From: Parcubacteria group bacterium GW2011_GWA2_47_26
GTDB lineage: Bacteria; Patescibacteriota; Patescibacteriia; GWA2-47-26
Reading direction: 5' to 3'
Length of the DNA: 33,513 nt
Assembly: GCA_001001705.1 (NCBI GenBank)
Contig: LCOG01000009.1
Location: forward strand, 1 to 33,513
Made by a program: the position numbers and the translations under genes. The notes under the pieces are model-generated. The model did not search any database. It worked only from the letters and a program-made list of their open reading frames with translations, and was not told where the DNA came from. Of this stretch, positions 2,088 through 8,356 are shown one piece after another. Positions within the stretch are counted from its first letter, which is position 1. Each line of letters starts with the position of its first letter.

Positions 2088-4619
2088 CTACAGTGTTTCC
2101 ATCTCTCCCCAATTTTTACCTTGCTTTATATCAACGACAATTGGAACTTTAAAAGAATGGATATTTTCCATGATAGATTTAATCTTTGGTGTAATCTCTG
2201 CCATTGCGCCCTCTTTCCCCTCAAACACCAATTCATCATGCACTTGCAACAACATCCGCACACCTGTGAACTGTGAACTGTCGACTGTGAACTGCTCGTA
2301 GAGCTTTGTCATCGCCATTTTCATGAGGTCAGCGCTAGTTCCTTGAATGGGCATATTTTGTGCCATGCGCTCGGCCGCGGCGCGCACTTGTTGCACTCCG
2401 GAATTAATCTCGGGCAAAAATCGGCGACGGCCAAAAAGCGTTTCCACATAACCGAGGATACGCGCCTTTTCTTTTAATCCTTCTAAATAATCATGCAAAG
2501 TACTGAACACTTCAAAATAGCGCTCAATAAATTGTTCGGCATCTTGCCGCGATAAACCGGTGCTTTGGGCGAGGCTTTTTGCGCCCATACCATAGACAAT
2601 GCCGAAGTTAATGGCTTTGGCATTGCGGCGCATTTCAGAAGTTATTTTATCTTCCGACTTTCCAAAAACGAGCGCAGCAGTTTTTGTATGAAAATCCTCC
2701 CCACTATTGAAAGCCTTGATCATCTGCGCGTCGCTTGAAAGCGAGGCGGCTATGCGCAGTTCAATTTGAGAATAATCCGCCGACAGCAGTTTAAACCCAC
2801 GTTCAGCAATAAAAGCTTTGCGGATTTGCCGCCCGGTCTTAGAACGAATAGGAATGTTTTGGAGATTGGGATTGGAAGAGGAAAGGCGGCCGGTCGCGGT
2901 TACGGCCTGATTAAAGGTGGTGCGGAGGCGGCCGTCTTTTTTATTAACCAAGGCGATTAGGGCATCGGTATAGGTAGATTGCAACTTCGCGAGTTCGCGG
3001 TATTCAAAAATCAAATCCACAATGGGATGACTGCCGCGCAATTTTTCAAGCTCTCCGGCAGCGGTAGAGGCGACACCGCCCTTAGCAGTTTTTTTTACTC
3101 GACCGGATACGGGCGCGAGTTTTAATTTATCAAACAGCATTTCGCGGAGCTGGGCCGGAGAGTTTATATTAAATTCTTGTCCGGAGCTCTCATGGATTTT
3201 TTTTGTCAACCGCGCGAGTTCTTTGCTAAATTCGTGAGACAGCTTTTTTAAATACGCGACATCAACTTTTATACCCCTTTCTTCCATGACAGCCAGCACT
3301 GGAATAAGCGGCATTTCAATATTCTCAAATACAAAATCAAGTTTTTCTTTTTTAAGCTCCTCGCGGAGAATGGAGACGAGTTGGTGCAAAACCGTGACCA
3401 AGTCACTTTTCGCCGTGACTTGGTCACGAAGATGTTCTTTTGTCACACTCTCAAAATCATGCGCCCTACTGCCGGGATGCAAAAGATAAGAAGCGATCAT
3501 GATGTCAAACAATTTTTCACCATTCCATTGTAAAGTTCCGTCGCGCAGGAGTTGTTTTAAATCGTGGCCGATAATAGTTCCATTTTGCCGCACATACGAT
3601 GTAGCGGCAGTCTTTAGGCTGCCATTGTCTTGTGGCGACCTCAAGGTCGCCGCTACGTTATTGCCGCCCAGCAACGAGGTTTGCTCTTTTTGCGCCAGCT
3701 CACGACCTGCGGCTACCTCTTCTTTATCCAGTCGCGCGAGCAAATTTTTAAACTCAAATTTTTCAAAAATCTCCCGTAATTTTTGAGTGTCCTGCGGCGG
3801 TATCTTGCAATCTGCAAGCGACACACTGATTGGCACATCGCGCACAAGTTGGACGAGTTTTTTGCCAAGCAAGGCGTCCTCTTTGTATGTACGTAAAAGC
3901 TCAATTGTCTTCGGCCTTACCTTTTTAATAACCTTATCGCCTGCTCTCTCGATCTCTTGGTATAGATCCTCTACATTCCCAAAATCCCTGATAAGCTCCG
4001 CGGCGGTTTTTTCTCCAATCCCCTTGACCCCCGGAATATTATCGGAAGGGTCGCCGCGCAAGGCCTTAAAATCAGTCATTTGCGCCGGAGAAAGTCCATA
4101 ACGCTCTTGCACTGCGGCTTCGTCATAAATAACCGTATCGGAAAATCCTTTGCGAAAGCTATATACTTTGGTACTTTTATCCACGAGCTGCAAAGTATCG
4201 AGGTCGCCCGTTACAATGACGGTTTCAATTGGCTGTGAGCTGTCGGCCGTGAACTCTGAACTCAATGTCGCAATCACATCATCGGCCTCCACTCCTTCTT
4301 TTTCAACCACGGGAATACCAAAAGCCTTGACTACTTGTTTTACTAAAGGTAGCTGATCGTAAAGCTCTTGAGGTTGTTTTATGCGAGTGGCCTTGTATTC
4401 TTTATACAACTCGTGCCGAAAAGTTGGCTTGGGCAAATCAAAAGTTACTGCGGCATAAGTTGGCTTTAGTTCTTTTAGAGCCTTGAGCAGGACAGTTGTA
4501 AAACCATACACCGCATTTACAATTTTCCCGTCTTTGGTGGAAAGCGAGGGCAAAGCATGAAAAGCCCGATGCACTAGGGCATTGCCGTCAATAATCATGA
4601 AACGGGGTTTGTTGTCCAT
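2088..4619 (-). CDS. polA: DNA polymerase I
   Basis: An 843-aa protein, near the usual family length. The N-terminal 5' nuclease domain starts MDNKPRFMIIDGNALVHRAF. The C-terminal polymerase domain shows motif A (SADYSQIELRI, about residue 613), motif B (RRNAKAINFGIVYG, about 661) and motif C (QVHDELVFE, about 790). The middle 3'-5' exonuclease-like domain lacks clear DxE and YxD catalytic motifs, so proofreading is probably absent, as in many bacterial Pol I enzymes. It fills gaps and removes primers in replication and repair. The ATG at 4619 is chosen over an upstream start at 4655 because the family begins there. Unusually, four repeat units lie within the frame (2264-2294, 3394-3427, 3601-3656, 4233-4263), adding lineage-specific peptide segments. 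Confidence 0.97.
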   Translation of the reverse strand: MDNKPRFMIIDGNALVHRAFHALPSLSTKDGKIVNAVYGFTTVLLKALKELKPTYAAVTFDLPKPTFRHELYKEYKATRIKQPQELYDQLPLVKQVVKAFGIPVVEKEGVEADDVIATLSSEFTADSSQPIETVIVTGDLDTLQLVDKSTKVYSFRKGFSDTVIYDEAAVQERYGLSPAQMTDFKALRGDPSDNIPGVKGIGEKTAAELIRDFGNVEDLYQEIERAGDKVIKKVRPKTIELLRTYKEDALLGKKLVQLVRDVPISVSLADCKIPPQDTQKLREIFEKFEFKNLLARLDKEEVAAGRELAQKEQTSLLGGNNVAATLRSPQDNGSLKTAATSYVRQNGTIIGHDLKQLLRDGTLQWNGEKLFDIMIASYLLHPGSRAHDFESVTKEHLRDQVTAKSDLVTVLHQLVSILREELKKEKLDFVFENIEMPLIPVLAVMEERGIKVDVAYLKKLSHEFSKELARLTKKIHESSGQEFNINSPAQLREMLFDKLKLAPVSGRVKKTAKGGVASTAAGELEKLRGSHPIVDLIFEYRELAKLQSTYTDALIALVNKKDGRLRTTFNQAVTATGRLSSSNPNLQNIPIRSKTGRQIRKAFIAERGFKLLSADYSQIELRIAASLSSDAQMIKAFNSGEDFHTKTAALVFGKSEDKITSEMRRNAKAINFGIVYGMGAKSLAQSTGLSRQDAEQFIERYFEVFSTLHDYLEGLKEKARILGYVETLFGRRRFLPEINSGVQQVRAAAERMAQNMPIQGTSADLMKMAMTKLYEQFTVDSSQFTGVRMLLQVHDELVFEGKEGAMAEITPKIKSIMENIHSFKVPIVVDIKQGKNWGEMETL
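2264..2294 (-). repeat. Heptamer tandem repeat inside polA (polymerase domain)
   Basis: On the + strand this reads CTGTGAA, CTGTGAA, CTGTCGA, CTGTGAA, CTG: four 7-bp units. In PolA it encodes part of QFTVDSSQFTG, just before motif C. A diverged copy of the same array lies at 4233-4263. Confidence 0.8.
3394..3427 (-). repeat. In-frame palindromic repeat inside polA (13-bp arms)
   Basis: GTGACCAAGTCAC (3394-3406) and GTGACTTGGTCAC (3415-3427) are perfect inverted arms around an 8-nt loop. In PolA they encode DQVTAKSDLVT in the middle domain. The same arms, with one base change, occur in frame in trxB at 32393-32435. Confidence 0.85.
3601..3656 (-). repeat. Two-armed 56-bp repeat inside polA
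   Basis: Outer arms GTAGCGGC (3601-3608) and GCCGCTAC (3649-3656) enclose two hairpins. One is GGCGACC-TCAA-GGTCGCC (3634-3651) and the other is around GGCAGTC-TTTA-GGCTGCC (3606-3623). It encodes part of the variable linker near residues 321-339. Related units occur at 4646-4702 and 15286-15334, both intergenic. Confidence 0.75.
4233..4263 (-). repeat. Diverged heptamer tandem repeat inside polA (5' nuclease domain)
   Basis: Units CTGTGAG, CTGTCGG, CCGTGAA, CTCTGAA, CTC follow the 7-bp period of the array at 2264-2294. In PolA they encode SEFTADSSQ in the 5' nuclease domain. Confidence 0.65.
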
Positions 4620-4645
4620 ATACGCTTGTCCACATAATAGCACAT

Positions 4646-4702
4646 GTAGCCGCAAGCTTCAGCTTGCATACCTTGCAACGCCTGCTAAAGACCGGCGACT
4701 AC
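4646..4702. repeat. Two-armed intergenic repeat upstream of polA
   Basis: It begins GTAGCCGC and ends GGCGACTAC, giving imperfect outer arms. The inner hairpin GCAAGCT-TC-AGCTTGC lies at 4652-4667. The architecture matches the unit inside polA at 3601-3656. It occupies the leader region of polA. Confidence 0.6.
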
Positions 4703-4725
4703 AAAACTCTTACAGCCATATTTTA

Positions 4726-4763
4726 AATAAAAAGAACCCTCCGCAGGAGAACCCTGGGAGGGT
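4726..4763 (-). terminator. Intrinsic terminator of the GC-rich orphan gene
   Basis: On the minus strand ACCCTCC (4757-4763) pairs with GGAGGGT (4736-4742), followed by TCTTTTTATTT. It ends the cassette 33 nt past the orphan gene stop codon. Confidence 0.8.
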
Positions 4764-4796
4764 GAGAAGGAAGGAGCGATGCGGAAGGAGCGAGGG

Positions 4797-5918
4797 CTAG
4801 ATCGTCGGGGTGGCGGAGGTCCAGCCCTGGCCGGACCGGAGCGGGCGGATGCCGCACAGGTTGACCGAGGTGCCGATCGCCGAGGCCGACTCCTCCGCGC
4901 TGTCGCGGATGGTCGCCTGGAACGTGATCGACCCGTCCTGGCCCAGCACCATGGTGAAGTGCGGGACGTAGCCCCGCATGTTGCCCACGATCCTGGCCAC
5001 CTTGTCGGTCGCCAGACCCGCGAAGCTCGCCTTGCGCTCGGTCTGGTCGCCCGCGACGTAGTCGCCGAGCATGTGGCGCGCGACCGCGAACCAGGCCGCC
5101 ATGTTGACACCGGTGGGGGCGCCGTGCAGCTGCGCCTGGTTGCTGCGGACCCGGTTCTCGGCGGAGATGACGATCGTGCGGTTGACGACCACGTTGCCCG
5201 AGGTCGCGATCTGCGTCTTGAGCAGGTCGATGACCGCCGGCCGGAGCTTGGCGTCCACCCCGCGCAGGGCCTTCCAGGCCTGCTCGTTGGCGAACACCGG
5301 GGTGACGTCGGTCAGCTCTCCGCGCAGTGCCGCGATGTGCGGGAACTCGATCCCGTCGCAGCAGCGCTGGATCGTCCGGAAGGCCTCGAGGGCCTGCCGG
5401 TTGATCTCGGCCTTGGTCGACGACTGCTCGCCGCCCCGGGTCTTCGCGCCGAAATCCGACGCGAACGCGTCCGACTCGACGAGCTTGCCCGCGGCGTTGA
5501 GCACCTTGTACGCCGGCCGCAGGATCGCGATCACGGTCCGGGCGTACTCGTTGAAGGGCGTGACGTCCGTCGGCGGGATCACGATCCCGGCGAGGACGTA
5601 CTCGATCGCCACGGTCAGGGCCTGGGCCTTGTTCAGGTCCAGCGCCAGGGCCTCGTCCGCGAAGTACGCGACGAGCGAGGCCAGGTCGGCCACGAACTCC
5701 TGGCCGGCGATCTCGGCCTTGGCGCCGAAGCGCTCCTGGAGGAAGCCCTTGTGGTCGGCCGGCACCGTGATCGCGCCCTGCGGCAAGTAGCCGCCGAAGG
5801 GCTTGACCCGCATGCCGTCGGGCACCCGGGCACTGGTCATGGCCTCGGTCTGCAGGGCGATGGCGACCCGCGAGAGGTCGTAGGTGCTGGGACGGGAGGG
5901 ATTGCCGTTCGTGCCCAT
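4797..5918 (-). CDS. GC-rich orphan protein, function unknown
   Basis: A 373-aa protein starting MGTNGNPSRPSTYDLSRVAI. I do not recognise a family. It has no signal peptide, no membrane segment and no obvious enzyme motif; alanine, valine and glycine are abundant, and there is one CC pair near the middle. The ATG at 5918 is chosen because AGGAGA lies 9-10 nt upstream, while an earlier in-frame start at 5948 has no such site. Codons end almost always in G or C (GCC, ATC, GTC, CTG, AAG, TTC), unlike all neighbours, and the GC-rich stretch stops sharply near 4740 and 6075. It has its own promoter (6211-6239), long leader and terminator. Options are recent transfer (phage or plasmid), a very highly expressed protein, or an assembly chimera. 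A viral structural protein is conceivable but unsupported. Confidence 0.8.
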   Translation of the reverse strand: MGTNGNPSRPSTYDLSRVAIALQTEAMTSARVPDGMRVKPFGGYLPQGAITVPADHKGFLQERFGAKAEIAGQEFVADLASLVAYFADEALALDLNKAQALTVAIEYVLAGIVIPPTDVTPFNEYARTVIAILRPAYKVLNAAGKLVESDAFASDFGAKTRGGEQSSTKAEINRQALEAFRTIQRCCDGIEFPHIAALRGELTDVTPVFANEQAWKALRGVDAKLRPAVIDLLKTQIATSGNVVVNRTIVISAENRVRSNQAQLHGAPTGVNMAAWFAVARHMLGDYVAGDQTERKASFAGLATDKVARIVGNMRGYVPHFTMVLGQDGSITFQATIRDSAEESASAIGTSVNLCGIRPLRSGQGWTSATPTI

Positions 5919-6075
5919 GGGTGTTTGTCTCCTGGTTGCCCTCGTCATGAGGGGCTTGAGTTGCCGCTCTTGTCCCGGAAGAAAATAGATTGCTCCTTTC
6001 TCCGTAGGGACAAACGGACTCGCGCGGGTATAGGGCGCACCCGCGGGGCGGACTGGAAAGAGCGGCTTGCCCTAA

Positions 6076-6158
6076 CTTGAAATCTCATAAAAGATCTCAA
6101 GCCAGAGCAAATCAATTTCCCAAATTTTTCCAAACTGAAATCCCGCCAGGGCGGGATC
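6076..6158 (-). other. Leader of the GC-rich gene with two hairpins
   Basis: The predicted transcript from 6211-6239 has a 5' leader of about 285 nt. It contains ATCCCGCC-AG-GGCGGGAT (6141-6158) and a 10-bp stem with one mismatch, CTTGAAATCT / AGATCTCAAG (6076-6101). No known riboswitch is recognised. Confidence 0.4.
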
Positions 6159-6210
6159 AAATAATCCGTATTTTGGATCCGTTTGCAAATCGTTTTTACA
6201 GATTGACTAC

Positions 6211-6239
6211 ACTCTACAAAACCTGCTAAATCTTGTCAA
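6211..6239 (-). promoter_or_regulatory. Promoter reading toward the GC-rich gene
   Basis: On the minus strand: TTGACA (6239-6234), a 17-bp spacer, TAGAGT (6216-6211). It has a perfect -35 and a 4/6 match at -10. It lies between tRNA-Cys and the orphan gene. Confidence 0.6.
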
Positions 6240-6280
6240 GCCCTCACTATCCACAAGGGTCTCTTGTGGAAAAACAAAAA

Positions 6281-6352
6281 AGGCCCGGGCGGGAATTGCA
6301 CCCGCGTATAAGAGTTTTGCAGACTCCTGCCTTACTACTTGGCTACCGGGCC
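6281..6352 (-). tRNA. tRNA-Cys (anticodon GCA)
   Basis: The minus strand folds as a cloverleaf. The acceptor stem is GGCCCGG/CCGGGCC with discriminator U. The anticodon stem GGAGT/ACTCT carries loop CTGCAAA (anticodon GCA), and the T-arm is GCGGG-TGCAATT-CCCGC. CCA is not encoded. A T-run follows the 3' end directly, then a stem TCCACAAG/CTTGTGGA (6250-6270). Confidence 0.95.
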
Positions 6353-6382
6353 CGATTTTAGGGGGTTGAGTCGGGTAATACG

Positions 6383-8356
6383 CTATTTTACTAGGAACCC
6401 CACGATTAGCAACGCTACGATATTGATAATCTTAATCATGGGATTGATGGCTGGACCGGCGGTATCTTTATAGGGATCGCCAACAGTGTCGCCGGTCACC
6501 GCGGCTTTATGCGCATCTGAACCTTTGCCGCCGTGATGTCCGGCCTCAATGTATTTTTTGGCATTATCCCAAGCGGCTCCGCCGGTGGTCATGGAGATAG
6601 CCACAAAAAGTCCGGTTATAATTGAACCCATGAGCAATCCGCCTAAGGCCTTTGGCCCCAAGAGAAAACCAATAAGTATCGGGGCGACAACCGGAATGAG
6701 CGCGGGTACAATCATGCGGGCTAGAGCCGCGCGAGTGACAATGTCTACGGCGCGACTGTAATCTGGCTTGGCCGTCCCTTCCATAATACCCTTGATCTCT
6801 TTAAATTGCCGGCGGACTTCATCAACGACTGCTCCGGCGGCTTTACCAACAGCTTCCATGCCCGCAGCTCCAAACCAGTAAGGCAAGAGCCCGCCGATAA
6901 AAAGGCCGACTAGCACGCGCGGATCACCGAGCTCAAAAACTATTTGCGCGCCGCGGACGGAGAGCTCTTCGGTATAAGCGGCAAAAAGCACGAGAGCGGC
7001 GAGTCCGGCTGAAGCAATTGCGTAGGCTTTGGTTACGGCTTTGGTAGTATTGCCTACAGCATCTAGAGGATCAGTCACGTCGCGTACTTCTTTGGGCAAG
7101 CCGGCCATTTCGGCAATGCCGCCCGCATTATCGGTAATCGGACCGAAAGCATCAATCGCCACAATAATGCCGGTAAGCGAAAGCATGCTCATAGCGGCAA
7201 TGGCCACGCCGTAAATACCGGCTAACTCATAAGCCAGAAGCACCCCGGCGGCGATGGTCAACACGGGCAAAGCAGTAGAGCGCAAAGAAACGGCTAGTCC
7301 GGCGATAATATTGGTACCATGACCAGTTTCAGAAGCTCTGGCAATTCCTTGCACGGGCTTATGAGTGGTGCCGGTATAATATTCGGTAATAAGGATCATC
7401 AGAGCGGTAACGACTAAGCCAATGAGTGCGCTCAAAAATAACCTAATGGGGTTGGCTCCGACTGGCGCAATCAAGGGAGTCACAAAATAAAATGCCAGAG
7501 CCGAAAGTACTCCCGCCACTACTAAACCCTTATAAAGAGCGGCCATTATTTTCGCATCTTTTAGGCGGATAAAGAGAGTGCCCACGATTGAAGCGATGAT
7601 GGCAATGGCTCCAATAACTAGAGGAAACATAATTGCCGAGGGACCAAAAGTCAGAGCGCCTAAAAGCATGGCCGCAATAGCGGTTACGGCATAGGTCTCA
7701 AATAGGTCGGCGGCCATGCCGGCACAGTCGCCAACATTGTCGCCTACGTTATCAGCAATCACTGCCGGGTTGCGCGGATCGTCTTCGGGAATACCGGCCT
7801 CAACCTTGCCGACCAGATCCGCACCTACATCCGCGGCCTTGGTATAGATGCCGCCGCCCAAACGCGCAAACACAGAGATAAGCGAACCGCCAAATCCCAG
7901 ACCGATAAGCGCATTGACATCACGGGTCAAAAAATAATATCCGGCGACTCCGAGCAAGCCTAACCCCACTACTAACAAGCCGGTGACGGTTCCGCCTTTT
8001 ACAGCAACATCCATGGCTTGTTTTAAGCCGTGCTTGGCGGCTTCAGTAGTGCGGACGTTAGCGCGCACCGAGACGGTCATGCCAATAATACCGGCTAACG
8101 CAGAAAAAACTGCGCCCACTAAAAAACCCAGCGCGACTTTAAAGTTTAGCCCAAAACCAAGAATAAGAAACAGGAGGATCCCGATGGGAGCGACTGTTTT
8201 ATACTGTCGTATAAGGTAGGCTTTGGCACCCTCTTGAATGGCCCGAGCAATACCAATCATTTTTCCTTCGCCACCCGGCAATTTAATGATCCGAGAGGCC
8301 AGGAATAGTCCCCATAGAATCGCCAAAGCGGCCGAGGCAAAAATAAAAATAAACAT
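6383..8356 (-). CDS. hppA: Membrane-bound proton-pumping pyrophosphatase, K+-independent type
   Basis: A 657-aa polytopic membrane protein with about 16 helices. It couples hydrolysis of pyrophosphate to ion export across the inner membrane. Diagnostic motifs are [12 protein letters not shown] and [20 protein letters not shown] (near residues 172-205), SITDNAGG-like [16 protein letters not shown], and a C-terminal [19 protein letters not shown], supplying the acidic and lysine residues that bind Mg-PPi. The motif GNTTKAVTK has Lys where K+-dependent enzymes have Ala, which marks the K+-independent H+ pump class. The gene stands alone upstream of tRNA-Cys on the same strand. In a reduced genome it could supply proton motive force from biosynthetic pyrophosphate. 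Confidence 0.96.

Follow-up and report, generated by a model that had tools for sequence, protein, structure and literature searches.

Near-total G/C-ending codons in a fast-evolving gene between tRNA-Cys and polA in a class of Patescibacteria

The window, as the whole analysed stretch of 33,513 nt is called here, comes from the draft genome (80% completeness) of a tiny-genome candidate-phyla bacterium, Parcubacteria group bacterium GW2011_GWA2_47_26. It holds a gene whose third codon positions are almost all G or C, in a genome where the mean at this position is below one half. How did one gene come by such a composition, and is it a sign of recent arrival or a property that is maintained? 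A preliminary description had raised a chimeric contig, recent acquisition, a viral origin and extreme codon optimisation for high expression. The features of the locus are as follows.

4797..5918, minus strand: GC3-saturated orphan gene P0001, 373 aa (ORF call, codon-position GC, homologues)
4735..6074, no strand: compositional island, GC 0.686 against 0.43-0.47 outside (two-breakpoint likelihood fit)
6211..6239, minus strand: sigma-70-type promoter TTGACA-17-TAGAGT (sequence pattern; equivalents in most other slot genes)
5919..6205, minus strand: structured 5' leader of about 287 nt (transcription start inferred from the promoter; fold -110.6 kcal/mol)
5928..5933, minus strand: Shine-Dalgarno AGGAGA (sequence)
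4722..4763, minus strand: intrinsic terminator, hairpin ACCCTCC/GGAGGGT followed by a T-run (sequence)
2088..4655, minus strand: polA, conserved downstream neighbour (match kept in class genomes, and sequence)
6280..6353, minus strand: tRNA-Cys(GCA), conserved upstream neighbour

The two-breakpoint fit divided the region into segments with GC of 0.430, 0.686 and 0.473 (log-likelihood gain 63), giving 68.6% inside the breakpoints against 43-47% outside. The gene starts with ATG and stops with TAG. Its GC at codon positions 1/2/3 is 0.641/0.483/0.979, compared with genome means of 0.547/0.396/0.463. The comparison set comprised 186 other ORFs, each 200 aa or longer, from the window together with 15 more stretches of its genome; their GC3 was 0.463 +/- 0.059 with a maximum of 0.65, which places the window gene at z = 8.8. 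GC1 and GC2 are raised too, GC is strongly phased by codon position, and C and G endings are about equally frequent. The unit is self-contained, with a consensus promoter-like sequence 321 nt 5' of the ATG (chance expectation of the pattern 0.09 per 520 nt), a long leader, AGGAG about 10 nt ahead of the ATG, the ORF and a terminator. The leader and 3' UTR have a GC of about 0.6, far below the GC3 of 98%, and Rfam held no family for the leader. The assignment of polA is based on a match conserved in 110 of 115 class genomes and on its own sequence. The preliminary description was thus borne out in the near-exclusive G/C third positions, in borders near 4740 and 6075, in the gene's own promoter, Shine-Dalgarno and terminator, and in its position between polA and tRNA-Cys.

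The protein matched nothing in Pfam, PHROGs, NCBIfam, PADLOC, PDB, phages, plasmids or IMG/VR, in agreement with the earlier statement that it belongs to no recognisable family. A defence gene was rejected, PADLOC giving no match, and so was a viral or plasmid origin, with zero matches in the phage, plasmid and IMG/VR collections; the suggestion of a virus-derived gene found no support. No donor was detected in the collections searched, where the pattern scan of genome contigs detects close relatives only. The structure prediction that had been proposed gave no reliable fold: AlphaFold2, run with the protein alone and with three sequences, reached a pLDDT of 38, its models suggesting only helices and a C-terminal hairpin. 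By eye, no signal peptide was apparent. With low confidence, the protein may be an abundant cytoplasmic product in a fast-changing role, whether host, phage or structural.

Whole-genome searches of the class revealed relatives in three genomes, all of one Uhrbacteria-like family, f19 (21-27% identity, E about 1e-13). The homologue adjoins tRNA-Cys in all three sampled f19 genomes and is then followed by polA, in the order of the window, in two of them. The order tRNA-Cys, gene, polA is seen in G060/L006 and G089/L005; in G020, the third f19 genome, polA lies on another contig. Independent assemblies thus place homologues beside the same tRNA-Cys, and we reject a chimeric contig. The profile search proposed earlier added no further real member among 381 class genomes, a sample of the class, where weak matches were housekeeping proteins by sequence. 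It found none among 380 phylum genomes besides the window's own. Between G020 and G089, which belong to the same genus, the slot protein is 0.45 identical and polA 0.72, and the protein therefore evolves faster than polA. In each of the three f19 genomes the gene is preceded by a strongly conserved hairpin, about 130 nt long, with a T-rich stretch after it (L002 2640-2770; L003 920-1050; L004 2800-2960); no Rfam family matched it.

The region upstream of polA was read in about 60 class genomes. In G001 and G002, the other two genomes sampled from the window's own family f1, a different protein with GC3 of 0.92 and 0.98 is encoded immediately upstream of polA, whose own GC3 is about 0.41 and 0.50. 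Genes with GC3 of 0.975 in G003 (f2) and of 0.95-0.98 in G057, G086 and G016 (f15) occupy the same position; G093 (f23) is a weaker case at 0.845. In G235 (f23), a relative of the f15 type with GC3 of 0.92 lies between tRNA-Met genes. Units can move whole, because the G235 unit is at other tRNA genes and the G020 unit does not adjoin polA. Slot genes have GC3 of 0.80-0.98 whatever the genome GC, and near-saturated GC3 occurs in genomes of 46-67% GC. Most units follow a common plan of promoter TTGAC(A/G), a leader of 195-450 nt, an ORF of 285-376 aa, with start codons that in several relatives are guesses, and a terminator. Ten of the 12 units carry the promoter pattern, for which chance would give 0.09 per 520 nt in each; the promoter of G089 lies 568 nt upstream, beyond the 520 nt considered in the other units. 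Nine of the 12 slot genes end in TAG, compared with 27% of long ORFs in the window's own genome. In the AT-richer genome G058, a lipoprotein gene of foreign appearance (L075 269-1984, minus strand; GC3 0.75), PEGA-like by eye, lies between tRNA-Cys and polA. Matches to the f15 profile in f81 fell in gyrase-A-like proteins and were rejected.

Carriers were clustered on a tree of polA from 53 genomes: five changes were needed, and none of 500 shuffles needed so few (mean 10.1). A clade of 34 rows was without any such gene. At least three well-supported changes are required by this tree, whose root is the midpoint only.

Shuffled alignments grouped the slot proteins into types. Within types, z was about 24 for the window and f19 proteins, 22 for both G057/G086 and G057/G235, 9 for G016/G057, and 7.3 for G001/G002 (0 of 400 shuffles). 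Between types it was 0.8 for window/G001 and -0.5 for window/G057. A lone cross-link joined G002 and G089 (z 5.3, reached by 0 of 400 shuffles), and profile-profile comparison failed to connect the window family with the other types. By these comparisons all types may share one origin; a single ancestral gene is not proven, because homology between types is mostly undetectable. The G001 and G002 proteins are related, and their gene has therefore stayed in the slot through deep divergence without loss of GC3. The f15 genomes G057, G086 and G016 show the same persistence of slot and GC3.

The best fit among the suggestions made beforehand is extreme codon optimisation for high expression, though not in its ordinary, expression-linked form. 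That form does not explain the gene, because the genome's own ribosomal-protein genes do not have these codons (GC3 0.41-0.51, with A/T endings preferred in most two-fold codon pairs). Codon selection would therefore be specific to the window gene. At four- and six-fold sites, synonymous choice agreed at near-chance levels in 6/6 homologue pairs from different genera (|z| at most 1.2). Only the same-genus pair G020/G089 exceeded chance, and its polA did likewise. Synonymous C/G choice is thus saturated between homologues of different genera, with GC3 still high. In G057 and G235, GC1, GC2 and amino-acid make-up are ordinary at GC3 of 0.95 and 0.92. Ordinary amino acids together with raised GC3 in some members point to selection on synonymous sites. 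The reading left, which we infer from these sequence comparisons, is that synonymous positions of an intensely used message are under selection.

We accordingly favour, at a probability of roughly 0.6, a long-resident, fast-evolving and lineage-specific gene in a conserved slot of the order tRNA-Cys, gene, polA, with its messages held at near-total G/C-ending codons. Transcription and translation of the unit would far exceed those of other genes, and A- and U-ending codons would be removed by selection acting on the message, chiefly at synonymous positions. Across the class, the slot proteins diverge very quickly or are replaced. Counting against this reading are the ribosomal proteins of the same genome and the near-equal use of C and G endings, unlike classical tRNA-driven bias. 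So do the positions of the G235 and G020 units, the changes on the polA tree and the mostly undetectable homology between types.

The window gene is the extreme of a small GC3-rich set and not the sole such gene in its genome: a few more (0.87-0.89) were found in a 696 kb sample, or 83% of the genome. In L051 (G000:C12) a diversity-generating retroelement (DGR) occupies segments 7734-8309, 7244-7393 and 5870-6943, all on the minus strand. It comprises a target gene (GC3 0.87), which has a consensus promoter, together with a 3' copy and a reverse transcriptase (RVT_1, E 1e-20). Of the 31 differences that separate the 3' copy from the target, most (18) are changes to A, 12 of them G>A, with many Asn codons. 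The window gene itself was rejected as a DGR target: no second copy of any part of it was present in the sampled 83%. In L168 (G000:C5:40001-60000), positions 3786-6618 on the plus strand encode two exported proteins with GC3 of 0.89, one with MopE motifs (PF11617); the two share a leader hairpin and a signal peptide and differ in their mature parts. An inverted repeat of 40-70 nt is dispersed over many stretches of this genome, including L168 3600-3710, in copies that are 71-91% alike.

The accessory appearance of these further genes is compatible with an insertion hot spot upstream of polA, in which each lineage would separately have acquired a GC-rich foreign gene from high-GC donors and the composition would be the donor's. 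The foreign-looking lipoprotein gene in the G058 slot, the different protein types within one family, the G235 unit at another tRNA site and the raised GC1 and GC2 of the window gene fit the same account. We nevertheless consider it unlikely. The pairs and groups G001/G002, G057/G086/G016 and window/f19 retain slot and GC3 despite deep divergence, amino acids are unshifted in G057 and G235, and none of the searched collections yielded a donor. A recent transfer fails to account for the gene, because such homologous pairs keep both slot and GC3; the recent acquisition suggested earlier is improbable for a slot that diverged homologues and equally GC3-saturated genes occupy in related genomes.

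A local DNA bias, such as GC-biased repair or recombination, would produce a GC-rich, fast-evolving island with no selection on the message. Sharp borders, the fast evolution seen between G020 and G089 and the about equal use of C and G agree with it. Such a bias does not explain the composition, because it would enrich the untranslated parts too, yet these are at about 60% GC, and in G057 and G235 GC3 alone is raised; we regard it as highly improbable. Least probable is a function in the RNA, an abundant and strongly folded transcript with a secondary reading frame: leaders are long, structured and strongly conserved among f19 genomes, and coding parts fold a little more strongly than they do with shuffled codons (mean z about -1.5, 11 genes), but ordinary genes give -0.6 to -0.9 in the same test, synonymous choice is unconserved and GC is phased by codon position. 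Conserved RNA structure in the coding region was rejected as weak and not clearly beyond controls.

Extending the favoured reading of a resident gene with selected codons, we propose tentatively that this class of Patescibacteria may have a single dominating transcript in an ancestral polA slot. Its protein would turn over rapidly or even be replaced by unrelated ones and its near-total G/C-ending codons would run opposite to the genome, a gene-specific codon selection undescribed in bacteria. Should the composition be actively maintained, a single extreme transcription unit of these uncultured symbionts would be given over to a fast-changing protein, and the role of that protein and the use of codons against the genome would become directly askable questions. 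In genomes of this kind an anomalous GC content does not prove recent transfer or contamination, and genes like these may be removed by binning tools.

Three known kinds of gene invite comparison. Genes with expression-linked codon bias, such as those for ribosomal proteins and elongation factors, resemble the window gene in near-consensus promoter and Shine-Dalgarno and in extreme, non-random synonymous codons; the window gene departs from the codons of its own ribosomal proteins, has C and G endings in about equal numbers and is fast-evolving. GC-anomalous ORFans and single-gene 'moron' cassettes are likewise self-contained units of foreign-looking composition, with a tRNA neighbour and no family, whereas the slot composition recurs in the same position in several families, and diverged homologues occur within families. 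Literature searches returned no described bacterial case of a gene with GC3 so near saturation, and we know of none in a fast-evolving gene recognised by position. Fast-evolving syntenic genes known mainly by their position share with the slot genes a conserved position and architecture and little similarity; the slot genes differ from them in having near-saturated GC3 in genomes of 46-67% GC.
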